From: Fusibacter paucivorans
Lineage (GTDB): Bacteria > Bacillota > Clostridia > Peptostreptococcales > Acidaminobacteraceae
NCBI RefSeq assembly: GCF_018390735.1
Contig: NZ_JAHBCL010000010.1
Coordinates: 62,001 to 126,000 of the forward strand
Direction: 5' to 3'
DNA length: 64,000 nucleotides
Shown: piece after piece, positions 1 to 62,015 of the stretch
How the letters are laid out: each line of letters begins with the position of its first letter
Numbering within the stretch: the first letter of the stretch is position 1
Program-made: the position numbers and the translations under genes
The notes under the pieces: generated by a model
Told to the model about the DNA's origin: nothing
Database searches by the model: none
Seen by the model: the letters and a program-made list of their open reading frames with translations, nothing else

Positions 1-423
1 GATTTCAAAAGCACCTGAAGCTAATGAGCTAATAATTTGATCCGCACCACTTGCCAACTGATTGGCAGGATAAATCTGAAGCACTATTTTGCCACCGCTT
101 CGCGCTTCAATTTCGTCAACCATCGTTTTAAAGAGAACACCCGATGGGGTCACGCCATAGTCCGCCGCGCTGAGTGATGTTGAAATTCTGGCAATGCGTA
201 CACCCTCTTGTTGGGTATACTGCGGAATTTCATAAACATTTTTATCAAGGCCAACCCTTACTTCTTCTGTTTGTGAAACTTCTGTACTTGAAGAGGATGA
301 TGCATTGCTTTCATTGTTATCGCTGTTCTGTGTTTCAGACGGCGCACTGCCTAATCCTCCACATCCTGACAAAACAATCGACAGTATCATTATCACGGTT
401 AACAAATAACGCATTTTTTTCAT
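1..423 (-). CDS. TRAP transporter substrate-binding lipoprotein (DctP family), C-terminus outside the window
   Basis: Only the first 141 codons are present; the gene continues beyond base 1. Reading the minus strand from ATG 421-423 gives a lipoprotein signal peptide with the lipobox LSGC (Cys at about residue 21), then a Ser/Asn-rich linker. A typical DctP start follows, with a segment reading FKTMVDEIEARSGGKI and IYPANQLASG. These are hallmarks of the extracytoplasmic receptors of TRAP transporters, which bind organic acids and deliver them to a DctQ/DctM sodium symporter. DctQM would be expected just to the left but is not visible. It is the last visible gene of the operon that starts at 4517, so it probably supplies the substrate that those enzymes degrade. 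The substrate cannot be read from this fragment. Confidence 0.85.
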   Translation of the reverse strand, partial: MKKMRYLLTVIMILSIVLSGCGGLGSAPSETQNSDNNESNASSSSSTEVSQTEEVRVGLDKNVYEIPQYTQQEGVRIARISTSLSAADYGVTPSGVLFKTMVDEIEARSGGKIVLQIYPANQLASGADQIISSLASGAFEI

Positions 424-481
424 AGTTTGACCCCTTTCATCATTACGATTCTTTTTTCATATGATCTAATTTCTAATTCCC

Positions 482-530
482 CAATTGAAGCGTCTCTTCA
501 ATTGACATACGCATTCATTGAACGAATGCG
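482..530. repeat. Two adjacent perfect stem-loops between the BKACE and TRAP receptor genes
   Basis: CAATTGAA (482-489) pairs with TTCAATTG (497-504), and CGCATTC (510-516) pairs with GAATGCG (524-530), each with a 7-base loop. No T-run follows on the minus strand, so these do not look like intrinsic terminators. In the mRNA they would sit between the enzyme genes and the receptor gene. They could protect the receptor message from decay or mark a processing site; that role is inference. Confidence 0.55.
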
Positions 531-646
531 ATCGACATCCCTGCCTGCTGCAACCCCTTTTACGTTGTCATTACACTCTTAAATGCTGTCGCAAACCTTT
601 GGTCACTCACATTGTTTTTGTTTACTTTGATAGCTCTACTTAGGTG

Positions 647-1549
647 TCATTTGTTTTTAATTGCCAACATCGCCCTTGCAGTTTCGACTGAAGCGATTGT
701 ATGACCTGATATTTCAGCAATTGTACGAACTGCCGCCACTTGTTCAGCACTGGATTTCGCCAAGACGCCTCGTTTAATATAGAGATTGTCTTCAAGACCA
801 ACACGGACATTGCCGCCCAGTGCAATCGCAACCATCGCCATATTAAACTGTGCCCTGCCAGCCCCTGCTACTGACCATACGTAATCACCGATCAGCTTAT
901 CTGCCGTTTGTTTTAAAAACACTAAATTTTCAACGGTTGCCGGCATACCGCCTAGAATCCCCAAGACAAATTGGATGTAAATAGGCCCTTTGAGAATGCC
1001 TTTTTGTTTAAAATAGGCCAAGTTGTTAATCATCCCTACATCATAAACTTCAAATTCCGGCTTCGTCCCCACTTCCGACATCGTCTCAATATAATGTTGT
1101 AAACCATCGAAAGTATTTTTAAAAACATTGTCCCGCGTCTTAATGAGATATGGCTTTTCCCAGCCGAATCCATCATCAATTTTTTCTGCAATCTCCGACA
1201 AGACAAAGTTCATTGTCCCAGCATTGCAAGAAGCCAATTCAGGCTTAAACACTTCAACCGGCAACAGCCTTTCTGCCGTTGTCATAAGCTGGCTGGCACC
1301 TGTCGTAACACAGACGATCACATCGCATTTCGAACGAATCCTCTCCAATATGTCTGACATGAGTTCATTTGAGGAAGACGGTTCTCCGGTTTCAGGGTTT
1401 CGAGCGTGAACGTGTACAACGGCAGCGCCTGCTTCGTAAGCTGCCTTTGCTTCCTCTGCAATTGCCTCTGGTGTAATGGGTAAATACGGGCTCATACTCG
1501 GCACGTGTACAGCACCTGTTAACGCTGCAGTAATGATTACTTGACGCAT
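647..1549 (-). CDS. 3-keto-5-aminohexanoate cleavage (BKACE) family enzyme
   Basis: A 300-residue TIM-barrel protein of the BKACE/Kce family. Members use a divalent metal to split a beta-keto acid with acetyl-CoA, giving acetoacetate and a new acyl-CoA. The N-terminus MRQVIITAALTGA and the metal-binding HVH (His46, His48) are characteristic. I chose the ATG at 1547-1549 because GAGGG lies at proper spacing and the family usually begins here; in-frame ATG 1606 and TTG 1609 would add about 20 residues that look unrelated. It follows the DUF6282 gene in the same operon. The family has many substrate subgroups (beta-keto acids from lysine, carnitine, betaine and others), and I cannot assign the substrate from sequence alone. 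Confidence 0.88.
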   Translation of the reverse strand: MRQVIITAALTGAVHVPSMSPYLPITPEAIAEEAKAAYEAGAAVVHVHARNPETGEPSSSNELMSDILERIRSKCDVIVCVTTGASQLMTTAERLLPVEVFKPELASCNAGTMNFVLSEIAEKIDDGFGWEKPYLIKTRDNVFKNTFDGLQHYIETMSEVGTKPEFEVYDVGMINNLAYFKQKGILKGPIYIQFVLGILGGMPATVENLVFLKQTADKLIGDYVWSVAGAGRAQFNMAMVAIALGGNVRVGLEDNLYIKRGVLAKSSAEQVAAVRTIAEISGHTIASVETARAMLAIKNK

Positions 1550-1613
1550 CTCGGTTTTCCCTCTACTTTCTTTTATAACTTTCTTTTCGTTCTTGGTGTT
1601 CGTCATCAAACGT

Positions 1614-2486
1614 TTAAAACCTCATGAGTTTTGCTGGATTAGTCTTGCCAATGAGTTCAATATCAGCCTCAGTTAGGCCATTACGAGATTCCAGTAAATT
1701 TATAAAGGTCATCATGCCTTCAACCGGGCTGCCATTGCCCTTTTGTCCCATATCCGAATCGAGAATAAAACAGTCGATTGGCAATGCCTCAAGCATTTCA
1801 TCGACAATATGCCAAGGTAGAGGCCCCAATTTGGATGCATCTGAGAAGACGCAGACATTCAGCTCAATATAAGCCCCCATCTTTGCCCATTTTTGCATTT
1901 GCTCATAAGTCGCGCCAATATGAAAATGAGGGTGATTGACAAGAACACGTTTAACGCCCACTTCAAATGCTTTTGTTACCAGATGGTCAATTTCCCATGC
2001 AGAGCCATGCCCCGTTCCCAATACCATGTCATTAGCAGCCATGTATTTTAAAATTTCCACAGCTTCCGGCATCATCACACCGTCTTCATCAACATAGACA
2101 ACGGGTTCTTCTTTTACCGATGCCATTCCTGATCCCGCAAAATTCCCCTTGTGAGCATCAATGTGATTCTTTGCTGACACCGTGGGAAAATAAATCATCT
2201 GTGTCCCCATTTGACGTGCTGTATCAACTGCCTTGAGATTAAAAAGGCCCATAGAATGATTGAGGGCCAACGAACTGAATATTCTAACATCACCCTTTGC
2301 CAAATGTTTTTCAATCATGGTACAACCAAGTGCAGATGGGAAATAATGATCTTTTACTAAAAACCCTCTATAACCAGCCGCACGCGCCTCCGTCAGCATA
2401 TCAGCTACATCCAGTTCGCGGTTTGCCGTTGAAGGCCCCGTGTGAACATGTAAATCAATAAGTCCCTTGAGTATGGATCGATTCAT
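1614..2486 (-). CDS. DUF6282 family protein, amidohydrolase/PHP-like metal-dependent hydrolase
   Basis: A 290-residue protein with a metal-site beginning DLHVHTGPS, a second DH pair (KDHYFPS), a third His-rich motif NHPHFH and a late Asp in ILDSDMGQ. This order of ligands is that of amidohydrolase/PHP-type barrels, and the overall pattern matches the DUF6282 family. Its reaction is unknown; hydrolysis or decarboxylation of an organic-acid intermediate is likely given its neighbours. The start is ATG 2484-2486, eight bases after AAGGAGG; a GTG at 2495 overlaps that ribosome site and is less likely. It lies between the DUF169 gene and the BKACE gene in one transcription unit. Confidence 0.8.
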   Translation of the reverse strand: MNRSILKGLIDLHVHTGPSTANRELDVADMLTEARAAGYRGFLVKDHYFPSALGCTMIEKHLAKGDVRIFSSLALNHSMGLFNLKAVDTARQMGTQMIYFPTVSAKNHIDAHKGNFAGSGMASVKEEPVVYVDEDGVMMPEAVEILKYMAANDMVLGTGHGSAWEIDHLVTKAFEVGVKRVLVNHPHFHIGATYEQMQKWAKMGAYIELNVCVFSDASKLGPLPWHIVDEMLEALPIDCFILDSDMGQKGNGSPVEGMMTFINLLESRNGLTEADIELIGKTNPAKLMRF

Positions 2487-2540
2487 GCATAACACCTCCT
2501 TAAGATGACCGCATTATTCTTTTGAATACACCAGCATTTT

Positions 2541-3311
2541 CTAAAACGCTGCATAGCTGTCTGGGAGCCCTGCCATCATATCCGTTGAAATGCCATAAGG
2601 CGCAATTGGATAGCGAAGACCATTTTTATAAAGCTTCTCAAGGCCTTCTAAAGCACGTTCCAAATTTTTTGGCGTCATTGTCAGAACGAGATCATGCGCC
2701 TTCGTACCGCCAAATTTTCGCTCTGCAAAACTAGGGAGCGCAAGGCTCGGTTTGCCTGTTTCATAGGTTCTAATCCAAGAATCATTGCACGCAGATTCAC
2801 CTGAAAAAGTAAATGACAGTTTCTCATATTGACCATACAGGTATCCGCTGAGCAGCATAAAAAACTGTTCAGAATCACCATAGAGAATACAGACATCTGT
2901 CTGTGTCAGCTTGCCACTGTCCACTGGTGAAGCAATAATACCAACAACCTGCTTTGACAGAATATTGAGCTGACAGTGATGTGCCTTTGCCGCTTCAGGA
3001 TCGTGCCAGATATCCGCAAACATTTTGCCGGATTCAAAGCGTTCATCCGGTTTTTCAAAACCGTGGATGACACGGCAATAATCTGCGTGAAAATTGTGAT
3101 GTCTAATCCCCATCGTCCAACGATAGTAGCGGGCTTGTCCAATGAGCTGACATGCCGCATGCCGTTTAGGACTGGTGCGAACACCTTTTACCGCTTGAAA
3201 AGCTTCTTCCGTTTCACAAAACTGCAACCCGATGATCGGTTCAGCATAGCGAAGGTACTTCACTAATTTTGATATGATATCTTCCCACGCTACTTTGCTT
3301 TCATCATGCAT
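2541..3311 (-). CDS. DUF169 family protein
   Basis: A 256-residue soluble protein of the DUF169 family (COG2043). The typical features are the early phrase EPIIGLQF, a CQLIGQARYY segment, and the later GDSEQFFMLLSGY and FSGESACND segments. Conserved Cys and His residues suggest metal or cofactor binding, but no function is established for this group. Its ATG overlaps the TAA stop of the cupin gene by one base (TAATG at 3311), so the two are probably translationally coupled. The operon context points to a role in the same degradative pathway. Confidence 0.75.
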   Translation of the reverse strand: MHDESKVAWEDIISKLVKYLRYAEPIIGLQFCETEEAFQAVKGVRTSPKRHAACQLIGQARYYRWTMGIRHHNFHADYCRVIHGFEKPDERFESGKMFADIWHDPEAAKAHHCQLNILSKQVVGIIASPVDSGKLTQTDVCILYGDSEQFFMLLSGYLYGQYEKLSFTFSGESACNDSWIRTYETGKPSLALPSFAERKFGGTKAHDLVLTMTPKNLERALEGLEKLYKNGLRYPIAPYGISTDMMAGLPDSYAAF

Positions 3312-3694
3312 TATTTGCCTTCTTTCTCAGCTAAAAATGCGGTAAAGCTTTCTGTATATTCCGGTCTGTCCGGTGTAAAAATATCCATTTGCAGACAAGG
3401 TACCGTGCTATCGTAAACATGGATATAATGCTCGACATTCGGCGGCACCGTTACCCATGAACCCGGTGTTAAGCGATAGGGTACGCCGTCAACATAATAA
3501 TCGCACTCGCCTTCAAGGACTAATGCCACCTGCTCATTTGGATGCGTATGCGGTTTTACTTCATTACCATTTTCTACGCGTCCCACCGTACAGCATAGCG
3601 TGTCTGCTTCCATCGCGAAAACGACGCGCTCAATACCCGCTCTCAGCGGCTGCCATTTTGTTTCATTCCAGTTGCCATTTGCAATTTTACTCAT
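3311..3694 (-). CDS. Small cupin-domain protein
   Basis: A 127-residue single cupin barrel. The two cupin motifs are visible: a KPHTHPNEQVALVLEGE stretch containing two His and a Glu that would bind a metal, and GSWVTVPPNVEHYIH with the final His. Such small cupins act as isomerases, dioxygenases or ligand-binding proteins, so the reaction cannot be named. The start ATG 3692-3694 follows GAGGAGG by six bases and overlaps the end of the aldolase gene by eight bases. The gene is coupled to both neighbours. Confidence 0.85.
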   Translation of the reverse strand: MSKIANGNWNETKWQPLRAGIERVVFAMEADTLCCTVGRVENGNEVKPHTHPNEQVALVLEGECDYYVDGVPYRLTPGSWVTVPPNVEHYIHVYDSTVPCLQMDIFTPDRPEYTESFTAFLAEKEGK

Positions 3695-4517
3695 TCTTTG
3701 CCTCCTCAACTTGCTTTGATAATGTTTCATAGCGCTTTGTCTTAAATGTATTCAGTTCTTCATAGGCCTGCTGAAACCTCTTTGCCGCCATTAACAAATC
3801 TGAACTGTATGCCACCATATGCATTCCCCACGCCTCATAGAGCGTCACTTCTTCCATCGATCCGGCATACGCCCCTAGATACTTGCCGCTCCTTAGAACT
3901 GTTTCTGTAATGCCTCTGACGACAGCAAGTACTTCAGGATCATTGGTTTGTCCACGTTTGCCCATCTCAGCACTGATACTTGCAACGCCAATAAAGATGA
4001 CATCGACATTGCGGATATTGCATATTTCATTGATGCGACCTGCCATTTGCAGATTTTCAATCATCACCATGCTGGTAAATGCCTCATTGAATCCTTCAAT
4101 ATAGTCATCACTTTCATAAAGACCATAATGTCCGGAGCGTGTTGTCAGTGCAAAATCCAATCTCCCAAGTGGTGCATATCGCATATAGGTAGCAGCACTT
4201 TCTATTTCTGCCAACTCATCGGCAATCGGCATCAAGATGCCCTGCGCACCTAAATCAATTGTATGAAGAATATGCTCTTCCTGATTTGAAGGAAGCCTCA
4301 CAACTGCCGACATGCCCACGCCATTCGCCGTTCGGATCATTGTCATTATGGATTCATAGCTGTAAGCACTATGTCTGGCATCGACAATGATAAAGTCAAA
4401 TTGCGAATAGCCAATCATTTCCACAATTTGAGCATTATTAAGTTTGATATACGTTCCCACAGAGAGCCCGCCTTGACTTAATTTTGCTTTCAGGGATAAT
4501 TGCGATGGATACGCCAA
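3687..4517 (-). CDS. HpcH/HpaI aldolase/citrate-lyase family protein with an altered metal site
   Basis: A 276-residue TIM barrel of the HpcH/HpaI family, class II aldolases that cleave hydroxy-keto acids to pyruvate and an aldehyde. Visible family landmarks are a TYIKLN start, VDARHS (the catalytic His region), VVRLPSN, LGAQGILMP and MIEN with the metal-binding Glu. Where relatives read FIGPxDLS, this protein reads FIGVASIS, so the Asp metal ligand is replaced by Ser. The start is TTG 4515-4517 with a strong AAAGGAGG seven bases upstream. As first gene after the sigma-54 promoter it leads the operon. It may be an aldolase with a changed metal mode, or a lyase or binding protein of different specificity. 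Confidence 0.8.
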   Translation of the reverse strand: MAYPSQLSLKAKLSQGGLSVGTYIKLNNAQIVEMIGYSQFDFIIVDARHSAYSYESIMTMIRTANGVGMSAVVRLPSNQEEHILHTIDLGAQGILMPIADELAEIESAATYMRYAPLGRLDFALTTRSGHYGLYESDDYIEGFNEAFTSMVMIENLQMAGRINEICNIRNVDVIFIGVASISAEMGKRGQTNDPEVLAVVRGITETVLRSGKYLGAYAGSMEEVTLYEAWGMHMVAYSSDLLMAAKRFQQAYEELNTFKTKRYETLSKQVEEAKNE

Positions 4518-4553
4518 TCCTTCACCTCCTTTTTAAAGCTCGTCTAGACTTAA

Positions 4554-4569
4554 CGCAAAAGTGATGCCA
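4554..4569 (-). promoter_or_regulatory. Sigma-54 (-24/-12) promoter of the aldolase-BKACE-TRAP operon
   Basis: The minus strand reads TGGCAT-CACTT-TTGCG. The -24 GG (4567-4568) and the -12 GC (4555-4556) have the exact spacing required by the RpoN consensus TGGCAC-N5-TTGCW. A transcript would start near 4543 and reach the ribosome site of the TTG-started aldolase gene within about 20 bases. The divergent gene at 5048 encodes a matching sigma-54 activator, which supports the call. Confidence 0.8.
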
Positions 4570-5047
4570 AATATCATCTTCAAAACTTAAACGCTCTGTT
4601 TTCAACGCGTTTGCAGCTTCTGACGATGAGCGTAAGCATCATTTCACCTAAACAGTGAAGAGATATACTTCAATTTGCTGATTTTTGAAAATCCATCAAG
4701 TCAATATCGACTCGTTTGTTGCTTCGTTTAATTGAGATATTTCTTTAAAATTTTGAACTTTTTTAAGAAATCACTCAAAATAGGCCATATCAACATTTCT
4801 TTCAAAGCATTTACTGTAATTATTCAATAGATGCAATAAGTCGTTTTTGATTTATATAGGCAATTGTATTTTGCTTCATCGTGCCTCAAGCGTTCTTATT
4901 TCACACAATCAGATAATCAACTCATATTCGACTTGTTTTTATCTTGCGCTTTAAGTCATCATTGTACCTTAAGTTGACTTTTTAAAAACATCATGTTAGA
5001 TTGAAGTAAATTTGATGTCGTGTAACCACAGAGGGGGCCAGCAAATC
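4570..5047. promoter_or_regulatory. Activator-binding region between the sigma-54 promoter and the divergent regulator
   Basis: This 478-base AT-rich stretch has no convincing gene. It contains repeated AAGTC/GACTT half-sites: a compact dyad AGTC-N6-GACT at 4699-4712, and single or inverted copies at 4838-4842, 4930-4934, 4953-4957 and 4976-4980. They lie 130 to 410 bases upstream of the -24 element, a normal distance for enhancer sites of sigma-54 activators. The 4976-4980 copy is close to the regulator's own start and could allow autoregulation. Binding is inferred. Confidence 0.4.
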
Positions 5048-6508
5048 ATGAACAGTGTCGAATGGAATTTGTCCATCAACTTGCAGGATATTCTAGATGT
5101 TCTCGAACTGCCAACGCACATTATCGATCATAACGGCATTGTCGTCGCCGTTAACGATAAGTGGGTAAAGCACATTGGCGTGTCTAAAGAGGAAGCCATT
5201 GGTTTTAAAATCAATGACGTGCTCCGAAGCTCTATGACGAAATTCTACTTTTCAATTGATTACGATGCGGACAAAGATGACAGCGAACAAAACGTCACAC
5301 ACTTTAAGGAAGCACTAAAGGATTCCGTTGCACTAAAAGTATTGGAAACCAAGACGAAAATAGCGATGTTCACGTATTCCGCAAAGCACGAAACAAAGCA
5401 TAATAAGATGCTTGTCACCAGCACCCCCATCTTGCGCGATAACAAGGTCTGCTATGTTGTGACGACACTAGCAAACGTCACCGAATCCATTCATCAGGCG
5501 CAACAGCTTGAAAAAGAAATACAAAAAAACGAAATGATTTTAGAAGAACTGAATTATTATAAAATGCAGCAGGTATCGCCAAAGATCGTTGGCAACAGCC
5601 CAGAAATTAAAAAAATAAAGGATTACATCGCCTTTGTCTCAAAAGCGAACGTCACCGTTTTAATCACTGGCGAAAGCGGCGTTGGCAAGGAAGTCTTTGC
5701 CAATGAAATTTATAGGAACAGTCATCGTGCTGACAAGGCCTTTGTTAAAATCAACTGCGCTTCTATACCGGATAATTTAATTGAATCCGAGCTCTTTGGG
5801 TATGAAAAAGGCGCCTTTACAGGCGCCAATAAAACGAAAATAGGACTGTTTGAAGTCGCCGATCAGGGGACTATTCTCCTTGACGAAATTGGAGAGCTGC
5901 CGCTCAATCTCCAGTCAAAGCTCCTTCGCGTGCTTCAAGAAATGGAAATCATGCGCATTGGTGGTAAAAAGCCTATTAAGATCGATGTCAGAGTCATTGC
6001 TTCAACAAATGTTGATTTATATCAAAGTGTTCAAAATGGGCTTTTCCGCAGCGATCTTTTCTATCGTCTCAACGTTATTCCCATCCATATCCCTGCACTC
6101 CGAGGACGAAGTGAAGATATTCCCGAATTAGCCGACTACTTCGTCGAAAAGTTCAATCGCAAATACAGCAAATTAAAAAGTCTTTCTGACGATGCCATTA
6201 TGCTTTTAAAGAATTACCAGTGGCCCGGCAATATTCGTGAAATGGAAAATTTACTTGAGCGCATTGTCATCATTGGCAGCAAAGACAAGATTACACAGGC
6301 TGATTTACGCTGCATTCTCTATCAGGATGAAGCCGCAGTCGCTGAAACCGCTGATTTAAGTTACGATGAAGCACTCGAAGCTTTTGATCGAAAATTGATA
6401 GAGGATTCACTGCATAAATATGGCAGTACTTATAAAGCCGCGGAGCATTTGCATACGACACAGTCTAAAATTGCACGTAAAGCAAAAAAATACAATATCC
6501 TGTGGTAA
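5048..6508 (+). CDS. Sigma-54-dependent transcriptional activator (PAS-AAA+-Fis)
   Basis: A 486-residue enhancer-binding protein. It starts with a PAS sensory domain (about residues 10-135), followed by a short coiled linker and an AAA+ domain (about 175-410). The AAA+ domain has Walker A GESGVGKE, the sigma-54 contact loop GAFTGA, a Walker B region GTILLDEIGELP and an arginine region RSDLFYRLNVI. A Fis-type helix-turn-helix occupies the last 45 residues (YGSTYKAAEHLHTTQSKI). ATG 5048 follows GAGGGGG and is preferred over the weak TTG at 5012. It is divergent from the catabolic operon and almost certainly activates its -24/-12 promoter when the PAS domain senses a ligand. Confidence 0.92.
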   Translation: MNSVEWNLSINLQDILDVLELPTHIIDHNGIVVAVNDKWVKHIGVSKEEAIGFKINDVLRSSMTKFYFSIDYDADKDDSEQNVTHFKEALKDSVALKVLETKTKIAMFTYSAKHETKHNKMLVTSTPILRDNKVCYVVTTLANVTESIHQAQQLEKEIQKNEMILEELNYYKMQQVSPKIVGNSPEIKKIKDYIAFVSKANVTVLITGESGVGKEVFANEIYRNSHRADKAFVKINCASIPDNLIESELFGYEKGAFTGANKTKIGLFEVADQGTILLDEIGELPLNLQSKLLRVLQEMEIMRIGGKKPIKIDVRVIASTNVDLYQSVQNGLFRSDLFYRLNVIPIHIPALRGRSEDIPELADYFVEKFNRKYSKLKSLSDDAIMLLKNYQWPGNIREMENLLERIVIIGSKDKITQADLRCILYQDEAAVAETADLSYDEALEAFDRKLIEDSLHKYGSTYKAAEHLHTTQSKIARKAKKYNILW

Positions 6509-6709
6509 TGACATACACTGCCTTTTACAACCGTTACACTAGCCTTACAAACAAACATGCACCATAACAAGTGTATGCCATAACAAACATGCGCTACATT
6601 AAACATACGCATTCCTAAAATGTAAACACAATCCTTTCGCCGAACAATAAGAAACGCCGTTTCATTTTACTGCTCTCGGTTAACTGGTATAATGTTGTCG
6701 ATAAACGTA

Positions 6710-6770
6710 AAAAAGCCCTGCCGTGCATCTGATCTGCTCAATCATCATGCAAGACAAGGCTTTATTTTAT
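6710..6770 (-). terminator. Intrinsic terminator downstream of carB
   Basis: On the minus strand AAGCCTTGTCTTGCAT pairs with ATGCACGGCAGGGCTT (13 of 16 positions), followed by TTTTTT. It lies 15 to 75 bases after the carB stop and between two convergent genes. A run of T also follows the plus-strand arm, so it may end the activator transcript as well. Confidence 0.75.
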
Positions 6771-6784
6771 TGATTTTAACGCCT

Positions 6785-9700
6785 TTAACCAATTTTTTTA
6801 ATATCGTAAACCTGAAGGTCATCAAGGCCTTCTTTGGTGTTAATCAATTTGACAAATGCACGATACGTATCATAGGCATGAACACACGGGATCTTCTTTT
6901 CAGTCGCATATCGTCTAAGACCAAATGACTGCTTACCCGCTTCACCAGACAAATTGGTAACGACAAATTTTACGTCGCCGTCGTTGATTACTTCGACGAG
7001 ATCATCTGATACTGACATTTTCGGCATTTTAATATGATTGGCTTCACAGAAGGCAACGGTTGCCTGATCTGTTACGATTTCAAGGCCTGCTGATGCAAAA
7101 CCGTCGACGATCTTTTCTACTTCGTAGAGCTGCTCGTCTAAGTAATCGAGCTGGCAAACGACTTTTCCCTTATTGTCAACCGCATTGCCTAAGGAAATAA
7201 ATCCCTTTAACAACGCGCGTTCCACTGTGTCTTCAATGCACATGATTTCGCCTGTAGACTTCATATTCGGTCCAAGGGCAATATCAATACCAACGAGTTT
7301 GTCGTTGGAGAAGACAGGCAGTTTCACTGCATAGACATCTTTTTCAGGGTAAAGACCCGTACTGTATCCCTGCTCTGCAAGTGTCTGTCCAAGCATAATG
7401 CCCGTTGACAGCTTAATCATCGGCACACCGGTGATCTTGCTGAGGAATGGTACCGTACGCGATGCACGAAGATTGACCTCAATGATGTATATTTCGCCAT
7501 TTTGGATAATGAGCTGAATATTCATCAGACCCTTGACTTCAAAGATTTCAGAGAGTTTCTTTGTTATCTCAAAAATGCGGTTTTTAACATCGACATTCAA
7601 AGCCGGCGGCGGATAGATGGAAATACTGTCACCGGAGTGAATACCCGCGCGCTCAAGATGTTCCATAATACCCGGGATCAATACTTCGCTGCCGTTGCAG
7701 ATTGCATCGACTTCCACTTCCTTGCCGTTAAGATAATTATCGACGAGAACGTCTTCATTACCAAGATCAAGCAGCTCCTGTACGTAGGTCGCCAGCGTTT
7801 CCTTTGTTTCAACAATTTTCATGCCGAGACCGCCAATGACATAACTTGGTCTAACGAGTACCGGATAGCCATAGCCTTCTGCCGCCTCAAGTGCTTTTTC
7901 CGGTGTCGTAACAGTCGTCCCCTCCGGATGTTTAATTCCTGCTTTATTAATAAGTTGATAGAAGCGCTCACGATTTTCACTCGCATCAATCTGATCGTAA
8001 TCTGTACCAAGTACGTAGTCTTTCATCGAATCAGCAAGTTTAAGCCCTGTATTGCCTGCATATTGTACGATAACACCTTCTGGCTGTTCATACTCAACGA
8101 CATTCAGGACATCCTCAATGGTCAGCGGTTCAAAATACAGTTTATCGGAAACGTCGAAATCGGTACTGACCGTTTCGGGGTTATTGTTAATGATAATGCC
8201 TTCATAGCCTTTTGATTTAAGTGCCATAATACCATGGACAGAACAGTAGTCGAATTCGACACCCTGTCCAATTTTAATGGGGCCCGAACCAACGACGACT
8301 ACTTTTTTGCGATCAGTGCGCTCATTTTCATCAAACGGATCATAAGTTGAATAATAGTAAGGCGTCAGCGCCTCAAATTCACCGCTACAGGTATCGACCA
8401 TCTTATACGATGCAACAATGCCCATATTTTTACGATAAGTCCTGACGTCAAATTCTGAAGGATGATCCAGCAAGTGCTTTGAAAGGAATGCATCCGACAT
8501 CCCCATGCGTTTCATCTTTGTCATCTGATCTTTCGTGATGCATTTGAGCACCGATTTGCGCACAAAATTTTCGAGCATGACAATATTTTTCAATTTATGC
8601 AGAAAGAAGAGGTCAATCCCAGTTCTCGCATTAATCCCAATCGGCGTCACTTCACGTCTTAACAGTTCCGCTACATAGAATATGCGGTCGGATTTTGGAA
8701 ATTTAATATTGTCAAAAAGTTCTGTCAAAGTAAGTTTCATCAGCGGTTCAAACATTAAGCTGTACTGATTCAGTTCCAATGACCGAATGGCTTTTAAGAA
8801 AGCCGCTTCAAAGTTATTGCCAATGGCCATGACCTCACCAGTTGCCTTCATTGTCGTTCCAAGTGAGTTATCACCTTCTGGGAACTTGTCAAATGCCCAT
8901 TTAGGGAATTTAATGACGCAATAATCCAATGACGGCTCATAGCAGGCATAGGTATTCTTTGTAATATCATTTTCAATTTGGTCTAAATGATAGCCAAGCG
9001 CAATCTTCGTCGACACTTTGGCTATCGGATAGCCCGTCGCCTTGGAAGCCAGCGCCGATGATCTAGAAACCCTAGGATTGACTTCAATAACGTAAAACTG
9101 AAAGCTATCCGGGTCAAGTGCATACTGAACATTACAGCCGCCGACGATTTCCAGTTCGCCTGCGATATCAATCGCCGCTTTCCGCAGCATTTGATACTCA
9201 CGATCACTGAGTGTTTGTGATGGCGCCACAACAATGCTGTCTCCCGTGTGTACGCCGAGCGGATCAATATTTTCCATATTACAGATGGTAATGCAGTTGC
9301 CTGCGCCATCGCGCATAATTTCGTATTCAATTTCTTTCCAGCCCATCAGTGATTTTTCAATCAAAACTTGGCTAACTGGCGATAATGACAGGCCGCGTTT
9401 CGTAACGGTTTCAAACTCTTCCATGGTATGACAAATACCGCCGCCCGTGCCCCCAAGGGTATAGGCCGGTCTGACAACCAACGGAAGTTCTAAATGTTTC
9501 AATGTCTCAAGTGCTTCTTTGTATGTGGTGACTGGATAGCTTTCGAGCACGGGAATATCAATTTTTTCCATTGCTTTTTTAAAAGCATCACGGTCTTCTG
9601 ATCGCTTAATCCCTTCAATAGAAGTTCCGAGTACTTCAATGCCGTAAGCATCGAGTACGCCGCTTTCATGAAGTTCGACGGCAGCGTTTAAACCCGTCTG

Positions 9701-9958
9701 ACCGCCAATACCTGGGATGATAGCGTCAGGGCGTTCTTTTTCAATGATTTTCTTCAAGAATTCAAGCTTTATAGGCTCAAGGTAAACGGCATCCGCCATT
9801 TCGCGATCTGTCATAATCGTCGCAGGATTGTTGTTGACGAGTATCGTGTAAATACCTTCTTCTTTTAACACTTTGCAGGCTTGGCTGCCCGAATAGTCAA
9901 ATTCTGCCCCTTGTCCAATGACGATTGGGCCGGAACCAATGACGAGAATACGTTTCAT
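6785..9958 (-). CDS. carB: Carbamoyl-phosphate synthase large subunit
   Basis: At 1057 residues this has the normal length for CarB. It makes carbamoyl phosphate from ammonia, bicarbonate and two ATP for pyrimidine and arginine synthesis. The two homologous halves each begin with a nucleotide-binding motif (VIGSGPIVIGQGAEFDYSG near residue 5 and VVGSGPIKIGQGVEFDYC near residue 555) and contain ATP-grasp domains (VIEVNPRVSRSSALASK and IIEVNLRASRTVPF). The last 130 residues form the MGS-like regulatory domain that binds allosteric effectors. Its ATG shares one base with the carA stop (TAATG at 9958), so the subunits are translated in a coupled way. Confidence 0.98.
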   Translation of the reverse strand: MKRILVIGSGPIVIGQGAEFDYSGSQACKVLKEEGIYTILVNNNPATIMTDREMADAVYLEPIKLEFLKKIIEKERPDAIIPGIGGQTGLNAAVELHESGVLDAYGIEVLGTSIEGIKRSEDRDAFKKAMEKIDIPVLESYPVTTYKEALETLKHLELPLVVRPAYTLGGTGGGICHTMEEFETVTKRGLSLSPVSQVLIEKSLMGWKEIEYEIMRDGAGNCITICNMENIDPLGVHTGDSIVVAPSQTLSDREYQMLRKAAIDIAGELEIVGGCNVQYALDPDSFQFYVIEVNPRVSRSSALASKATGYPIAKVSTKIALGYHLDQIENDITKNTYACYEPSLDYCVIKFPKWAFDKFPEGDNSLGTTMKATGEVMAIGNNFEAAFLKAIRSLELNQYSLMFEPLMKLTLTELFDNIKFPKSDRIFYVAELLRREVTPIGINARTGIDLFFLHKLKNIVMLENFVRKSVLKCITKDQMTKMKRMGMSDAFLSKHLLDHPSEFDVRTYRKNMGIVASYKMVDTCSGEFEALTPYYYSTYDPFDENERTDRKKVVVVGSGPIKIGQGVEFDYCSVHGIMALKSKGYEGIIINNNPETVSTDFDVSDKLYFEPLTIEDVLNVVEYEQPEGVIVQYAGNTGLKLADSMKDYVLGTDYDQIDASENRERFYQLINKAGIKHPEGTTVTTPEKALEAAEGYGYPVLVRPSYVIGGLGMKIVETKETLATYVQELLDLGNEDVLVDNYLNGKEVEVDAICNGSEVLIPGIMEHLERAGIHSGDSISIYPPPALNVDVKNRIFEITKKLSEIFEVKGLMNIQLIIQNGEIYIIEVNLRASRTVPFLSKITGVPMIKLSTGIMLGQTLAEQGYSTGLYPEKDVYAVKLPVFSNDKLVGIDIALGPNMKSTGEIMCIEDTVERALLKGFISLGNAVDNKGKVVCQLDYLDEQLYEVEKIVDGFASAGLEIVTDQATVAFCEANHIKMPKMSVSDDLVEVINDGDVKFVVTNLSGEAGKQSFGLRRYATEKKIPCVHAYDTYRAFVKLINTKEGLDDLQVYDIKKIG

Positions 9959-11028
9959 TATTCAGCCTCCTTCATCATACGAATAAATTCATCAAACAGA
10001 TAACTGGAATCACCGGGACCCGGAGAAGCTTCCGGGTGATACTGTACGCTGAAAATCGGCAACTCATTATGTTTCAGGCCTTCAATAGACCGATCGTTCA
10101 AATTCAAATGCGTTACGGTGACGGGCTTGTCTTTCAGACTTTCATCGACGACCACATAACCGTGATTTTGGCTCGTAATAACGATTTTGTCATTGACGAG
10201 ATCTTTGACCGGATGATTGGAGCCTCTATGACCAAATTTCAACTTTTCCGTCTTAGCACCAAGCGCCAGCGATATGAGCTGATGTCCGAGACAGATGCCA
10301 AAAACTGGTTTTAAGTCAAGCAATGTTTTCACATTTTCAATGACTTCGACATAGTCTTCCGGATTGCCGGGACCATTGGACAGAAAGATGCCATCTGGCG
10401 CGTATGCCATAATATTCTCTACCGATGTAAAGGCAGGAAATACTCTGACATTTAAGTTGCGCAGCACGAGTGAGTCCAAAATATTGCGCTTAATGCCAAA
10501 ATCAAGCACCGCCACTTTGAGGTCACCTTTGCCCAAATCATAAGCATCTGGTGTTGTTACGGCTTTAAGGATATCAACGCCTTCTTCCAAACCTTCGAAA
10601 ACATCTGCTTTATTGACATCGTAAAGTGTTTCGCTGACAATTTTCCCAATCATGGTTCCCTTGTCTCGAATGTGCTTAACCAACGCACGGGTATCAATGC
10701 CTTGAATGCCGACGATCTTGTTGTTATTCAAATAATCTGACAGATTATCTTTGCCGCGCCAATTTGAATAGTCTTCAACGAATTCACGACAGACGAGTCC
10801 TTTGATTTTAGGCCCGCGTGATTGTTCGTCTTCATGGCTTATGCCGTAGTTCCCAATTAATGGATAGGTCAAAATAACAATTTGACCGTAGTATGAAGGG
10901 TCTGTGATGATCTCCTCATAGCCAGTCATCCCAGTGTTAAAAACCACTTCGCCTACGGTCTCAGTCTCACACCCGAACAGGGTGCCTTCAAATATCAAGC
11001 CATCCTCTAGCAAAAGATAACCTTTCAT
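9958..11028 (-). CDS. carA: Carbamoyl-phosphate synthase small subunit (glutamine amidotransferase)
   Basis: A 356-residue CarA that releases ammonia from glutamine for CarB. The N-terminal CarA-specific domain (MKGYLLLEDG, LTYPLIGNYGI) is followed by a class I amidotransferase domain with nucleophile Cys in GICLGHQ and the His-Glu pair in QYHPEASPGP. The start ATG 11026-11028 lies five bases after GGAGG; an earlier in-frame start at 11049 adds residues unlike the family. It is preceded by 68 bases and a small gene in the same orientation. No PyrR attenuator or pyrimidine-type leader was seen. Confidence 0.97.
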   Translation of the reverse strand: MKGYLLLEDGLIFEGTLFGCETETVGEVVFNTGMTGYEEIITDPSYYGQIVILTYPLIGNYGISHEDEQSRGPKIKGLVCREFVEDYSNWRGKDNLSDYLNNNKIVGIQGIDTRALVKHIRDKGTMIGKIVSETLYDVNKADVFEGLEEGVDILKAVTTPDAYDLGKGDLKVAVLDFGIKRNILDSLVLRNLNVRVFPAFTSVENIMAYAPDGIFLSNGPGNPEDYVEVIENVKTLLDLKPVFGICLGHQLISLALGAKTEKLKFGHRGSNHPVKDLVNDKIVITSQNHGYVVVDESLKDKPVTVTHLNLNDRSIEGLKHNELPIFSVQYHPEASPGPGDSSYLFDEFIRMMKEAE

Positions 11029-11096
11029 GCATACCTCCATTTTAATCAATGTATCTCGTACATTATTAATTACTGTCTACCTAAATTTATATGATA

Positions 11097-11447
11097 TCAC
11101 AACTGAGCTTCCGGTGAAACTATTTTTATATTTTTTTTATCATTCACCATTTGACTGAGTATTTCTAAAAGGCCTTCATCAACAGCAATGATGTCGGCAT
11201 TCTCCTTCTCTGCAATCGCCATTATTTTTTTTGCCCGATATCCGGCGCTTTCAATTTGCGCTTTTTCACCTTCAATCATATACACGCGGTTAGCACCAAT
11301 CGCAGTTGCAGCATTGGACAGCATTGGTGCATCAACTTCTGAAAAATGGACGGCAATACGCCGCGCATTGGCTTGCGCTTCCATCCAAGCAAGCACTTTT
11401 GAATTTAGATTGTCTTCACGATAAGCAAAAATAATGGTTTCCTGCAC
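11097..11447 (-). CDS. Small hypothetical protein upstream of carAB
   Basis: A 116-residue soluble protein with a GTG start eight bases after GAGGTGAT. It alternates predicted beta strands and helices: ETIIFAY at the start, then GANRVYMIEGE, KKIMAIAEKENADIIAVDEG and NIKIVSP. The GANRVYMIEG and ENADIIAV phrases recall the nucleotide-binding fold of electron-transfer flavoprotein subunits, but the protein is too short for a full ETF subunit and I do not name it. It has its own strong promoter and probably forms a transcription unit with carA and carB. A role in carbamoyl phosphate synthesis is possible but unsupported. Confidence 0.65.
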   Translation of the reverse strand: MQETIIFAYREDNLNSKVLAWMEAQANARRIAVHFSEVDAPMLSNAATAIGANRVYMIEGEKAQIESAGYRAKKIMAIAEKENADIIAVDEGLLEILSQMVNDKKNIKIVSPEAQL

Positions 11448-11474
11448 TTTTTTATCACCTCAGTCTTTTAAGTG

Positions 11475-11503
11475 ATTATACATAACATTTTATATTTATT
11501 CAA
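11475..11503 (-). promoter_or_regulatory. Sigma-A type promoter of the small gene and carAB
   Basis: The minus strand shows TTGAAT (11498-11503), a 17-base spacer and a perfect TATAAT (11475-11480). It lies about 30 bases before the GTG start at 11447 and just after the terminator of the preceding nitroreductase gene. It is the best candidate for transcribing 11447-6785. Confidence 0.75.
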
Positions 11504-11510
11504 TTGTTTT

Positions 11511-11539
11511 TTGAAAAAAAGAGGACAAAATGTCCTCTT
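11511..11539 (-). terminator. Intrinsic terminator of the nitroreductase gene
   Basis: AAGAGGACA (11519-11527) and TGTCCTCTT (11531-11539) form a perfect 9-base stem with an AAA loop, followed on the minus strand by a long T tract. It lies about 40 bases after the stop of the 11578-12399 gene. Confidence 0.9.
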
Positions 11540-11577
11540 ATAACAGTTGCATAAAATGAATTGAAATATCTACAGTC

Positions 11578-12399
11578 TCATGACAGTTTATTTGAAAAAC
11601 CTTCAATAACAAAACTCGTAATATACTCGTATTTTTCAAACGGCTTAATCACTTCATTAATCCACTGACCCTTAAAGCCCATGGCTTCAACTGCAATGCC
11701 AAAATGACACATGACAATGCCCATATCAATGTATTTGAGATTCAGCCCTTGCTCTGTTAGATAATCTGACTGCATATAAAACCTAAAAACAGTATCGTCA
11801 ATCACAATGCGCCACGGCTGACGATTCATCGTCGACGGGGCTCTTTGAACCGCTTCAAAAATCGGTTCGTAGCGATTGATATGGTATCCTTTTAAAGGAC
11901 TTCCGATAAAATTTGCAAAGAACAACTGGTCGATTCGCTTACGCTCTCTCCCGTGTTTTGCCCTGATTTTTTGATGCCAACTCGCCTCATCAGCACGATA
12001 ACCAACACTAATCAGCGCCGGAATATTGTCATCGTCTTCAAGGCCTAAATGACGCTCGATTCTGCCCTTGTTAGGTATATTGCCGATCCAGCATGTACCC
12101 AATCCCTCGGCAGTGAGATTTAAAACCATGTGTTCCAGGCTATAGCCGTAATCTATGAGGATAGAGCGCTCATTTGGAACGCGCGCAAAAAGATAAGCGG
12201 GACTGCCTGTAATCGCACCAAATGACGAAAAACGCGTAATGCCTATGTCGCGTGCTGTCTCCGTATCGACGATTTCAGGTTCTAGTATATTGCCGAACAC
12301 CCCGCGTCGGCATTGCCTGAGTAGGGGCTTTAGGGTCTCGACATTAAATGGTGACAGTTCATAAGCTCGAACCGACGTTCTCTGTCTTATCCGATCCAT
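11578..12399 (-). CDS. TM1586-like nitroreductase family protein
   Basis: A 273-residue flavin-fold protein of the nitroreductase superfamily, of the single-chain double-domain (TM1586-like) type. It begins with the RQRTSVRAY flavin-contact motif, has a GLGTCWIGN segment in the middle and a second RAPSTMNRQPWRIV motif near residue 190. It probably binds FMN and reduces a quinone, nitro or similar electron acceptor with NAD(P)H; the substrate is unknown. It stands alone between its own extended -10 promoter and a clear terminator. A paralogue with the same two motifs is at 42155-43021. Confidence 0.8.
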   Translation of the reverse strand: MDRIRQRTSVRAYELSPFNVETLKPLLRQCRRGVFGNILEPEIVDTETARDIGITRFSSFGAITGSPAYLFARVPNERSILIDYGYSLEHMVLNLTAEGLGTCWIGNIPNKGRIERHLGLEDDDNIPALISVGYRADEASWHQKIRAKHGRERKRIDQLFFANFIGSPLKGYHINRYEPIFEAVQRAPSTMNRQPWRIVIDDTVFRFYMQSDYLTEQGLNLKYIDMGIVMCHFGIAVEAMGFKGQWINEVIKPFEKYEYITSFVIEGFSNKLS

Positions 12400-12482
12400 G
12401 TTAACTCCTTTCTCATATGCCCTTCCGCCATGATGATATTGCTTGTCTGTACGCTAGGGCAGCACGTACTTACATCTATTAT

Positions 12483-12491
12483 ATTATACCA
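12483..12491 (-). promoter_or_regulatory. Extended -10 promoter of the nitroreductase gene
   Basis: The minus strand reads TGG-TATAAT (12491 down to 12483), a TG-N-TATAAT extended -10 element. It lies about 85 bases upstream of the ATG at 12399. No good -35 hexamer is seen, which is normal for this promoter class. Confidence 0.55.
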
Positions 12492-12521
12492 CTTTTTACA
12501 AAAAATATTCAGTACAATGGC

Positions 12522-12550
12522 TTGCAATACATCACAAATTTTGATATAAT
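12522..12550 (+). promoter_or_regulatory. Sigma-A type promoter of the CarA-N-terminal-like gene
   Basis: TTGCAA (12522-12527) and a perfect TATAAT (12545-12550) are separated by 17 bases. Transcription would begin near 12557, giving a leader of about 78 bases before the ATG at 12635. Confidence 0.75.
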
Positions 12551-12634
12551 ATCGTTAATAAATATTCATTCCATTGTATAATAATTAGTAGTTATTTAAG
12601 TCGTTCCGTGAGACGACAATACGAGGAGGTATGT

Positions 12635-12913
12635 ATGAAAAGTTATTTGGTACTTGAAAACGGCTCAATGTTGAACCTTGCAACCTGTTCTTTCAGCCAC
12701 AATGTCTTAGGCGTGGTTACCGTTGATAATCATACACTCAATCTACAAGATCCGGCAACTGGTAAAGCATATCGTTCAAAACTCGATATGAAAGAAGAAA
12801 ATCGGCTCGCTTCTATGCTGATGACTGGTCATCCGATGCTTGGCAAATTTGTTACAGACGAATTGCCGCTCGACTATCATTTATATGATTTAAAAACGGT
12901 GATTCTTTCGTAA
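12635..12913 (+). CDS. Orphan protein resembling the N-terminal domain of CarA
   Basis: A 92-residue protein that starts MKSYLVLENG, matching seven of the ten first residues of this genome's CarA (MKGYLLLEDG). Near residue 70 it reads MTGHPMLGKFVTDEL, which lines up with LTYPLIGNYGISHED of CarA; the spacing is also similar. I read it as a diverged stand-alone copy of the CarA N-terminal domain, without the amidotransferase half. ATG 12635 follows GAGGAGG by five bases. It has its own promoter and terminator, 1.6 kb from carA and on the opposite strand. A function in binding CarB or a metabolite is only a guess. Confidence 0.7.
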   Translation: MKSYLVLENGSMLNLATCSFSHNVLGVVTVDNHTLNLQDPATGKAYRSKLDMKEENRLASMLMTGHPMLGKFVTDELPLDYHLYDLKTVILS

Positions 12914-37171: not shown

Positions 37172-38185
<1,014 letters not shown>

Positions 38186-54715: not shown

Positions 54716-55435
54716 CTAAAGTCTTAAGCCACCGTTGACGGACAAGTTATGACCTGTCACAAACGACGATTCATCACTTGCTAAGAAAAGCACTGCATTG
54801 GCGATTTCCTGCGGCTCACCAAGTCTGCCGAGCATCGTCTTTTGTCTGATTGGATCAAGTACCTTATCAGGGACTGTCTTCATCATATCGGTATTGACAT
54901 AACCAGGGGCAACACTGTTGCAGCGAACAGCAGCGCCTTTGCGCGCAAACTCTTTAGCCCATGTTTTCGCCATACCAATAACACCAGCTTTTGTCGCTGC
55001 ATAATTGGATTGACCGACATTACCAAATTCACCTACAACTGAAGCGATGTTGATAATGCTGCCTTTACCAATTTCCATCATGTGCGGCCCAATGGCCTGT
55101 GCCATGTTAAAGACACCTTTAAGGTTAACATTGATAACCATGTCCCACATGTCTTCAGTCATCTTGTTAATCAATGCATCCCTTGTAATCCCTGCATTGT
55201 TGACAAGAATGTCAATGTGACCATATGATGCAACTGTTTCTTCGACAAACTTAGCAATGGCATCTCTGTCTGTGATATTAAGTTTGTAACCTTTGATCAT
55301 TTCTGTATCAAAAGTTGCTTCTTGCATATCCACAGCGATTACTTTTGCGCCCTCTTTCGCAAAAGTTTCAGAAATTGCGCGGCCAATACCCTGTGCACCA
55401 CCTGTTACGACTGCTACTTTTCCTTCTAATCTCAT
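54716..55435 (-). CDS. Short-chain dehydrogenase/reductase, 3-oxoacyl or acetoacetyl-CoA reductase type
   Basis: A 239-residue classical SDR. The NAD(P) motif is TGGAQGIG, NNAG is present at about residue 82, and the active site Ser plus Tyr-x3-Lys is in NYAATKAG. Close relatives are FabG and PhaB, which interconvert 3-oxoacyl and (R)-3-hydroxyacyl thioesters. Its position behind a CoA-transferase and a permease argues for oxidation of (R)-3-hydroxybutyrate or its CoA ester rather than fatty acid synthesis. ATG 55433-55435 lies eight bases after AAGGAG. It is the last gene of the operon. Confidence 0.9.
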   Translation of the reverse strand: MRLEGKVAVVTGGAQGIGRAISETFAKEGAKVIAVDMQEATFDTEMIKGYKLNITDRDAIAKFVEETVASYGHIDILVNNAGITRDALINKMTEDMWDMVINVNLKGVFNMAQAIGPHMMEIGKGSIINIASVVGEFGNVGQSNYAATKAGVIGMAKTWAKEFARKGAAVRCNSVAPGYVNTDMMKTVPDKVLDPIRQKTMLGRLGEPQEIANAVLFLASDESSFVTGHNLSVNGGLRL

Positions 55436-55515
55436 TATACTCACTCCTTATTTATAAATGTGAGTAATGCCGGCAACCGATAAATAGCTGCCGGCATACT
55501 CAATGGTTGCTTATT

Positions 55516-57060: not shown

Positions 57061-57092
57061 GATAGCCTCCTAATATTTAAATCAACTGTTTC

Positions 57093-59008: not shown

Positions 59009-59024
59009 TGCAATACACATGCCA
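59009..59024 (-). promoter_or_regulatory. Sigma-54 promoter of the CoA-transferase operon
   Basis: The minus strand reads TGGCAT-GTGTA-TTGCA, an excellent match to TGGCAC-N5-TTGCW. It lies 74 bases upstream of the first gene, directly downstream of the activator gene at 59255. Confidence 0.85.
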
Positions 59025-60964: not shown

Positions 60965-61000
60965 CAAATCCCCCTCATCTGCAAATCATTTTCTGATTCA

Positions 61001-61753: not shown

Positions 61754-62015
61754 CGCGCCTCCTTGTAACAATTTATTTACAGTTATCATTTATCAAAATT
61801 ATCCACTCGGCAAAACAGCATAATATTGAATGCATTCAATCCTTTATCAGCATTAATAAGTGCCGTAATTGCCAAACAAACGATACATTTGTATCGTTTA
61901 GTTTACATTTCTGCACCTGTCCATAACTAGTTAAATTATAACACAATAATACGAAAGTCGTGCTAAATTTGCAAAAAATACGCTCACACTGTCACCCATC
62001 ACACTTTTCATGTAC
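61754..62015. promoter_or_regulatory. Upstream region of xth with extended -10 promoter and a 22-base palindrome
   Basis: On the minus strand TGT-TATAAT (61943 down to 61935) is an extended -10 promoter. About 25 bases downstream of its expected start lies the palindrome AAACGATACA-TT-TGTATCGTTT (61878-61899). Its size and symmetry fit the operator of a TetR-type or similar dimeric repressor acting as a roadblock. No gene is visible in this stretch. Confidence 0.55.

Follow-up and report, generated by a model that had tools for sequence, protein, structure and literature searches.

The window analysed here, 64,000 nucleotides of Fusibacter paucivorans DNA (NZ_JAHBCL010000010.1, positions 62,001 to 126,000; C1:62001-126000 in a genome of 4.43 Mb and 96 contigs), begins with part of a real, conserved catabolic operon, predicted to be under sigma-54 control. 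The operon is a new combination of known kinds of enzyme and includes DUF6282, a domain of unknown function that a structural model newly places in a known superfamily. In the best explanation, to which we give a probability of about one half, this clostridial operon imports a sugar-acid-like carboxylate and breaks it down through the pathway proposed below. The dehydratase, the second aldolase and the other genes added by following the operon out of the window point to a substrate of this class. The genes and their families, the sigma-54 elements, the conserved neighbourhood, the modelled DUF6282 fold and the loss of a metal-binding aspartate from one aldolase homologue are the computed results from which this explanation starts. 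No account of the cluster was found in the open-licence papers searched, either for DUF6282 (PF19799) or for the gene combinations, in keeping with its earlier designation as undescribed.

Gene content and extent of the operon

A preliminary description of the locus named six tightly packed genes, encoding a TRAP receptor (DctP), a β-keto acid cleavage enzyme (BKACE), DUF6282, DUF169, a cupin and an aldolase homologue. All six families are found on the minus strand by Pfam, DctP through its full-length protein. The coupled starts are as described. TAATG at 3311 holds both the stop of the cupin gene and the start of DUF169, and an 8-base overlap at 3687-3694 joins the end of the aldolase gene to the ATG of the cupin. 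Close packing holds for the overlapping or abutting genes but not for the BKACE-DctP junction, where there is a gap of 223 bases. The six genes are real, but the unit is larger than first described. On the same strand it continues past the window start (L006, the stretch reaching beyond it) with the rest of DctP, DctQ, DctM, a dehydratase, a second aldolase, an acyl-CoA dehydrogenase, EtfB and EtfA. The window covers about half of the operon, the full unit being roughly twice as long.

The TRAP set is complete, with a full-length DctP of 392 residues (L006:11245-12423; PF03480, 228.5 bits), DctQ (PF04290, 76.3 bits) and DctM (PF06808, 342.5 bits). EtfA bears an N-terminal ferredoxin domain and, together with the acyl-CoA dehydrogenase and EtfB, resembles the acryloyl-CoA reductase complex, at scores under its NCBIfam cut-offs. 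For the BKACE gene, alignment makes an ATG at 1549 likelier than the TTG start (Table 1).

Base composition is uninformative on a foreign origin of the operon, with a G+C content of 44.8% in the operon cluster, 40.9-44.6% in other 12.7-kb stretches of the window and 41.6% in a second cluster on contig C12. Known riboswitch families are not represented within the operon. A cobalamin riboswitch (93 bits) is located at L006:353-527, directly upstream of a gene that we take to be cobT-like.

Table 1. Features of the operon and its control region in the window.
Feature	Position	Strand	Evidence and remarks
TRAP receptor DctP, N-terminal 141 aa	1..423	-	below Pfam cut-off as fragment
BKACE (β-keto acid cleavage enzyme)	647..1609	-	PF05853, 357 bits; 320 aa from TTG start
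DUF6282, amidohydrolase-superfamily metallohydrolase by model	1614..2495	-	PF19799, 214 bits; GTG start, alternatively ATG at 2486
DUF169 protein	2541..3311	-	PF02596, 121 bits
Small cupin, KdgF-like metal and Asp/Arg pattern	3311..3694	-	PF07883, 52.6 bits; open frame to 3730, likely start ATG at 3694
HpcH/HpaI aldolase homologue, first gene of operon	3687..4517	-	PF03328, 68.7 bits
Sigma-54 promoter-like site TGGCATCACTTTTGC	4555..4569	-	-24/-12 pattern
Divergent sigma-54-dependent activator, AAA+ and HTH	5012..6508	+	PF00158, 235.9 bits; PAS domain below Pfam cut-off

Conserved neighbourhoods and distribution

The earlier proposal of a degradation pathway for an organic acid taken up by a TRAP system is well supported by conserved neighbourhoods, by sigma-54 sites at related loci and by a second cluster in the same genome. 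This second cluster, on C12 (L007), is rearranged and comprises its own sigma-54 activator, an FMN-reductase-like flavoprotein, DUF6282, a cupin, a complete TRAP P/Q/M set with a receptor of another type, an aldolase and a BKACE. Identity to the window proteins is 57% for DUF6282, about 80% for the cupin and 58% for BKACE.

A locus scan seeded by two short DUF6282 peptides, which reaches close relatives only, returned 21 loci in 19 other assemblies, all titled Clostridia or Firmicutes. Neighbours up to about 10 kb away were identified by BLAST against the two F. paucivorans clusters, with samples checked by Pfam; several loci are cut by contig ends. TRAP genes lie near DUF6282 at 20 of the 21 loci, a cupin at 19, an HpcH homologue at 16 and a sigma-54 activator homologue at 14. 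BKACE is found at 12 (one of them truncated at a contig end, with 33% identity) and DUF169 at 10 (one at only 23% identity). An enolase-type dehydratase and a CoA-transferase each occur at 7 loci, and a LarA homologue and a PRK12394-like amidohydrolase at 5 each. Rarer companions are an enoate reductase, a metallo-beta-lactamase-fold protein and an FMN reductase (4 each), an acyl-CoA dehydrogenase and a thiolase (3 each) and an HpaB-like protein (2). The single locus lacking TRAP genes (L021, Tissierella) has a CitMHS-type carrier just upstream.

Gene order varies between genera, and the association is therefore no single frozen block. The sister genome (L008, L023) carries both clusters in the same gene order as F. 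paucivorans, as far as its contigs reach. The preliminary description had singled out separation of these genes in relatives as the outcome that would speak against a unit. Such separation is partial: the exact six-gene set was seen only here and in the sister genome, and BKACE and DUF169 were often not found within reach, DUF169 being unseen at 11 of the 21 related loci (several of them contig-cut). Judged from gene content, BKACE and DUF169 are modular. A thiolase gene was found near DUF6282 at 3 of the 9 loci without BKACE and at 0 of the 12 with it. It is possible that CoA-transferase and thiolase have been swapped in for BKACE, on too few loci for the point to bear weight.

The same variation lends itself to a different explanation, in which the operon is a composite island of two or three unrelated pathways (sugar-acid, BKACE, and acyl-CoA dehydrogenase/Etf) placed under one regulator and lacking a single substrate. 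BKACE, DUF169, the dehydratase and the acyl-CoA dehydrogenase do vary among the 21 loci, but TRAP and cupin genes accompany DUF6282 at most of them, the dehydratase tracks one receptor type exactly (see below) and the window genes overlap or abut. We regard a composite island as improbable.

Among 61 relatives, matches to the DUF6282 model were confined to F. paucivorans itself and one genome of the same genus, with 0 of 35 genomes of the same family and 0 of 24 of the same order. Across the class, 391 genomes were sampled and 27 gave any DUF6282 match, many of them short and weak; besides F. paucivorans, 10 genomes scored above 100 bits and only one was close (G292, 378 bits). The distribution of the cluster is patchy, as is often the case for mobile catabolic modules. 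As genomes titled Flavonifractor, Oscillibacter and rumen Lachnospiraceae carry related modules, the compound degraded may be an acid of plant or host origin, with an anaerobic breakdown that has yet to be described.

Sigma-54 control

Control by sigma-54, as first proposed, is supported by the -24/-12 site ahead of the first gene, the divergent activator (Table 1) and a single match in the genome to the sigma-54 DNA-binding domain (PF04552, 212.7 bits). The window contains 4 matches to the pattern TGGCAY-N5-TTGC, where shuffled sequence gives 0.57.

At related loci, 15 with an activator divergent from the operon were scanned for sites in the operon direction at a threshold of at least 22 of 24. 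A site was found at 10 of the 15, compared with a mean of 0.027 and a maximum of 1 in 300 dinucleotide shuffles. The two clusters of the sister genome duplicate those of F. paucivorans, so that among independent loci the count is 8 of 13. With tighter intergenic pieces, 7 of 15 loci had shown a site in an earlier scan; since some starts had been called too far upstream, the pieces were then lengthened to take in about 60-120 bases of the first gene. That first scan found no site upstream of the TRAP receptor gene. The L019 activator is not divergent, and this locus was excluded from both scans.

Two further exact matches in the window, at 37515-37529 and 47086-47100, lie inside called open reading frames and are possibly due to chance. 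The inverted repeats upstream of the operon include no clear activator site, and the best of them (4732-4778) is A+T-rich and may also be chance. Sigma-70-like sites (34 against 30.8 in shuffles) and terminator-like structures (22 against 14.3, standard deviation 4.2) led to no inference.

Two receptor types

When the two F. paucivorans clusters are counted, the receptor type of the window is found at 8 of 23 loci and the other type at 14. The enolase-type dehydratase accompanies the window's receptor type at all 8 loci and the other type at none of 14. A homologue of the LarA family of 2-hydroxyacid racemases is present at 5 of the 8. Among solved receptors, 4p47 and 7bbr are closest to the window's type and 4n8y to the other, but 4n8y is also fourth for the window's type. 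We take 7bbr to bind sugar acids and 4n8y a uronate. The tracking of the dehydratase fits a hydroxy acid that would need prior dehydration where the window's receptor type is present. The two receptor types offer a direct route to the compound through ligand screening.

DUF6282 is modelled as a metal-dependent hydrolase

The preliminary description treated DUF6282 as a domain of unknown function; its fold is now modelled as an amidohydrolase-superfamily barrel. The model, built from 22 sequences, has a pLDDT of 91.3 and a pTM of 0.90. Compared by Foldseek and VIA-align, it matches human dipeptidase 3 with a Z of 21.6 (root-mean-square deviation 2.9, 256 aligned residues), followed by dihydroorotase (20.8), phosphotriesterase homology protein (20.4), lactonase Lmo2620 (19.3) and 2-pyrone-4,6-dicarboxylate hydrolase (18.9). 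A sequence search of the PDB with DUF6282 gave no significant relative (best E 0.15).

The metal ligands of amidohydrolases follow a pattern of HxH on strand 1, His on strands 5 and 6 and Asp on strand 8. In DUF6282, H13 and H15 (strand 1), H160 (strand 5), H185 (strand 6) and D245 (strand 8) are invariant in 22 of 22 sequences, as are K45-D46-H47 (after strand 2), H108, H112 and E208. Applying the pattern to the sequence, we presume the first five to be the canonical metal ligands. DUF6282 is modelled with confidence as a metal-dependent hydrolase of the amidohydrolase superfamily.

The company that DUF6282 keeps extends to 11 more distant loci (identity 29-52%), ten of them from 8 other genomes and one on contig C6 of F. 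paucivorans; G244, G070, G057, G364, G292:C115 and short partial matches were set aside. A carboxylate importer adjoins DUF6282 at 9 of the 11, namely TRAP M at 7 (Pfam-checked in 6) and MatC/CitMHS at 2. Of the remaining two, one is accompanied by MFS carriers, and for the other no carrier was seen on its contig of 5.4 kb. This company suggests that DUF6282 acts on the imported compound or soon after its uptake. The locus on C6 (L079, C6:23000-41000, 5086-11697) is the third DUF6282 locus of the genome and lies beside a PIG-L deacetylase and a TAXI-like receptor (NMT1_3), with a large TRAP M-like protein and an iron-only hydrogenase.

Varying partners at the distant loci, such as an aconitase and an HMGL-like protein beside the same importers, would also suit a simpler role in lactone or amide scavenging, with DUF6282 as the sole dedicated enzyme and the other proteins funnelling ordinary products to central metabolism. 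The persistence of the cupin and the aldolase in close relatives suggests a dedicated pathway instead, and we consider scavenging an unlikely account of the operon.

Aldolases, dehydratase, cupin and DUF169

In class II HpcH/HpaI aldolases the metal ligands are a Glu and an Asp. The "aldolase homologue" of the preliminary description does belong to this family, but in the window protein GxGDLS has become GVASIS, replacing the metal-ligand Asp by Ser. The metal-ligand Glu is kept, and the Glu of the EH motif is replaced by Arg. Comparison with GarL (1dxe) reveals the same change. In the HpcH alignment, which left out the second aldolase of L008 as well as L009, L023 and L024, 18 of 20 sequences keep both the GxGDLS Asp and the EH-motif Glu, the exceptions being the window protein and its orthologue in the sister genome. 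A normal class II aldolase was rejected for the first gene because the Asp is lost, and the protein is probably not such an enzyme. The second aldolase, encoded outside the window (PF03328, 92.8 bits), keeps VHVENLE and GPGDLS with both metal ligands.

The dehydratase belongs to the enolase superfamily (MR_MLE). Its top NCBIfam match is galactonate dehydratase (PRK14017/NF010624), at 239.6 bits, under the cut-off of 311. The Glu and His motif residues are kept in 8 of 8 sequences, from which we read that the enzyme may work like galactonate dehydratase.

In the cupin alignment (L008, L009:920, L018 and L023 left out), three His, one Gln (in the order H, H, Q, H) and an Asp are invariant in 21 of 21 sequences; an Arg is nearly so, and a Phe is not present in all. 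KdgF cupins combine a His/His/Gln/His metal site with a catalytic Asp, Phe and Arg. The residues named for KdgF are Asp102, Phe104 and Arg108 (PMC11381880), and a KdgF-like function is suggested for the cupin.

DUF169 has five residues (Cys54, Cys79, Cys175, His75 and His111) that are invariant in 9 of 9 aligned sequences. Its structural model is only moderately confident (pLDDT 77). No significant relative was found in the PDB by sequence (best E 0.15), and no Foldseek match reached an E of 0.001 (best 0.28).

BKACE and its possible substrates

The window BKACE is of the long type, with HxH and RxGxED motifs that are invariant in 12 of 12 aligned sequences. The nearest structures by phmmer are 3lot, 3e49, 3e02, 8rip and 8rio, with BKACE15 (8rip) at 275 bits. 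The confirmed substrates listed for BKACE15 are uncharged C5-C6 β-keto acids (PMC11961710), and the window enzyme resembles in sequence those that cleave such compounds. The position separating Kce (Glu14) from the phloroglucinol enzyme triacetate acetoacetate-lyase (TAL) is a Trp in the latter (PMC10470551). At this position the long type has Val or Ile, the window BKACE Val and the enzyme on contig C33 Trp. Identification of the BKACE subgroup by active-site residues, as the preliminary description had recommended, succeeded as far as the subgroup (long type, Val) but singled out no one substrate. In the sister genome, a metagenome-assembled genome, the BKACE gene (L008:10998-11902) is split into two overlapping frames, perhaps through a sequencing or assembly error or as a decaying gene.

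The F. paucivorans genome holds nine BKACE matches. Lysine-fermentation Kce was rejected for the window enzyme, which scores 271 against a cut-off of 382. A BKACE on contig C55 (L082, C55:90000-107000, 8428-9288) passes this 3-keto-5-aminohexanoate cleavage model at 437.4. The phloroglucinol pathway was likewise rejected for the operon, which has no cyclase and a different specificity residue, with a better candidate on C33. The C33 cluster (L080, C33:100000-118000, 7310-12802) includes a short BKACE with the TAL Trp, a PF04199 cyclase one gene away, a sigma-54 activator-like gene and a sodium/solute symporter-like protein (108 bits, under a cut-off of 184). Judged from these four genes, it is likely a phloroglucinol-degradation cluster. 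The phloroglucinol and lysine-fermentation pathways appear to have their own BKACEs, on C33 and C55.

A substrate of another kind has to be weighed here, namely a polyketide-like or phenol-derived compound (a pyrone, a cyclic 1,3-diketone or a phloroglucinol-type intermediate). DUF6282 would open its ring or lactone to give 3,5-dioxohexanoate or 5-hydroxy-3-oxohexanoate, which BKACE would convert to acetoacetate and acetoacetyl- or 3-hydroxybutyryl-CoA, leaving the dehydratase and aldolase as a side branch. On the model for 3,5-dioxohexanoate:acetyl-CoA acetone transferase (NF053538), the C12 BKACE passes the cut-off of 430 at 433.1 and the window BKACE comes close; five relatives score 397.9-418.9. 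The related loci come from Papillibacter, Flavonifractor, Oscillibacter and rumen genomes, and the enoate reductase, HpaB-like, CoA-transferase and thiolase genes counted above would suit this chemistry. However, the separate short BKACE near the cyclase on C33 means that the operon is not needed for such a route, in which an acid-sugar dehydratase, a LarA homologue and a KDG-type aldolase would be unexpected. We therefore hold a phenol- or polyketide-derived substrate to be rather doubtful.

Proposed pathway for a sugar-acid-like carboxylate

For the sugar-acid-like carboxylate that we favour, we infer the order of steps, the substrate class, the bond hydrolysed and the identity of the β-keto acid as follows. 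The PAS-type activator would sense the substrate or a related signal and turn the operon on from its -24/-12 site, and the TRAP transporter would import a hydroxylated, sugar-acid-like carboxylate. DUF6282 would act by hydrolysis, most likely of a lactone, ester or amide bond, on the compound taken up or on an early intermediate. The galactonate-dehydratase-like enzyme would remove water to yield a 2-keto-3-deoxy acid, the KdgF-like cupin may help in opening or tautomerising a cyclic form, and pyruvate would be split off by the second, intact HpcH/HpaI enzyme. BKACE, with acetyl-CoA, would cleave the β-keto acid of the pathway to acetoacetate and an acyl-CoA, and the acyl-CoA dehydrogenase with EtfAB would handle the acyl- or enoyl-CoA. 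The roles of DUF169 and the degenerate aldolase remain outside this proposal.

Several results weigh against this pathway. The dehydratase and aldolase yield pyruvate and an aldehyde, which does not account for the origin of BKACE's β-keto acid, and a carbon path from a sugar-acid-like substrate to an uncharged β-keto acid could not be drawn; the two halves may therefore serve different compounds. BKACE was unseen at 9 of the 21 related loci and the dehydratase at 14 (several contig-cut). No site at the threshold was found at 5 of the 15 loci scanned for sigma-54 control (L010-L013 and L026), four or all five of which have the window's receptor type. None of the operon proteins reached the NCBIfam cut-offs for a named dehydratase, aldolase or acyl-CoA reductase; the window BKACE, at 414.6, falls below that of NF053538 and carries Val in place of the Trp of the phloroglucinol-pathway enzyme. 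The structure matches of DUF6282 do not settle its subclass among dipeptidase, dihydroorotase, lactonase and other amidohydrolases, the Z values being too close. KdgF is only the fourth PDB sequence match of the cupin (E 1.9e-7), behind other small cupins including a cellulose oxidative enzyme, and its likeness to KdgF for that reason stays a suggestion.

A more far-reaching version can be put forward only tentatively. In it, DUF6282 would represent a new family of carboxylate-specific metallohydrolases acting directly behind TRAP/MatC-type importers. In this clostridial cluster it would open an undescribed route joining sugar-acid chemistry (dehydratase, KdgF-like cupin and KDG-type aldolase) to acetyl-CoA-dependent β-keto acid cleavage, with CoA-transferase and thiolase replacing BKACE in some relatives. 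The results as a whole give the Pfam family, so far without a function, a testable class as a metal-dependent hydrolase of imported carboxylates, and the operon provides a list of genes expected to work together.

Elsewhere in the window, an operon at 54716-58448 encodes a short-chain dehydrogenase (PF00106), a CoA-transferase-like protein (57% identical to one near a related DUF6282) and a GntP-like permease (40%). Upstream are a -24/-12 site (59010-59024) and a sigma-54 activator-like gene (59255-60967; 42%). This operon possibly serves the use of 3-hydroxybutyrate or acetoacetate, and could be a sink for the acetoacetate from BKACE.

Comparison with known systems

Acid-sugar operons pair an enolase-superfamily dehydratase with an HpcH/HpaI (KDG-type) aldolase. 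The present operon is similar in having a galactonate-dehydratase-like enzyme, a GarL/HpaI-type aldolase and a carboxylate importer. It differs in that no kinase or NAD-dependent dehydrogenase is among the operon genes read, in the addition of DUF6282, DUF169, BKACE, the acyl-CoA dehydrogenase and Etf, and in scores that stay below the NCBIfam cut-offs for named dehydratases and aldolases.

DUF6282 shares its barrel, and the arrangement HxH...H...H...D along the strands, with dipeptidases, dihydroorotase and phosphotriesterase-like lactonases of the amidohydrolase superfamily. In contrast to these, it has no Lys or Glu at the usual strand-4 bridging place, as far as the strands can be placed, and carries two additional invariant motifs, KDH following strand 2 and HxxxH following strand 4.

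The anaerobic degradation of phloroglucinol in Clostridium scatologenes proceeds through PGR, DPGC, TfD and TAL (PMC10470551). It too uses a BKACE-family enzyme to make acetoacetate from a β-keto acid. The present operon, in contrast, has no PF04199 match (those of the genome are on C33 and C23), and its BKACE is of the long type with Val rather than Trp at the specificity position. BKACE15 of Paracoccus denitrificans (PDB 8RIO/8RIP/9HNF) is likewise a long-type enzyme, to which the likeness of the window BKACE is one of sequence, and its physiological role is given as unknown (PMC11961710).

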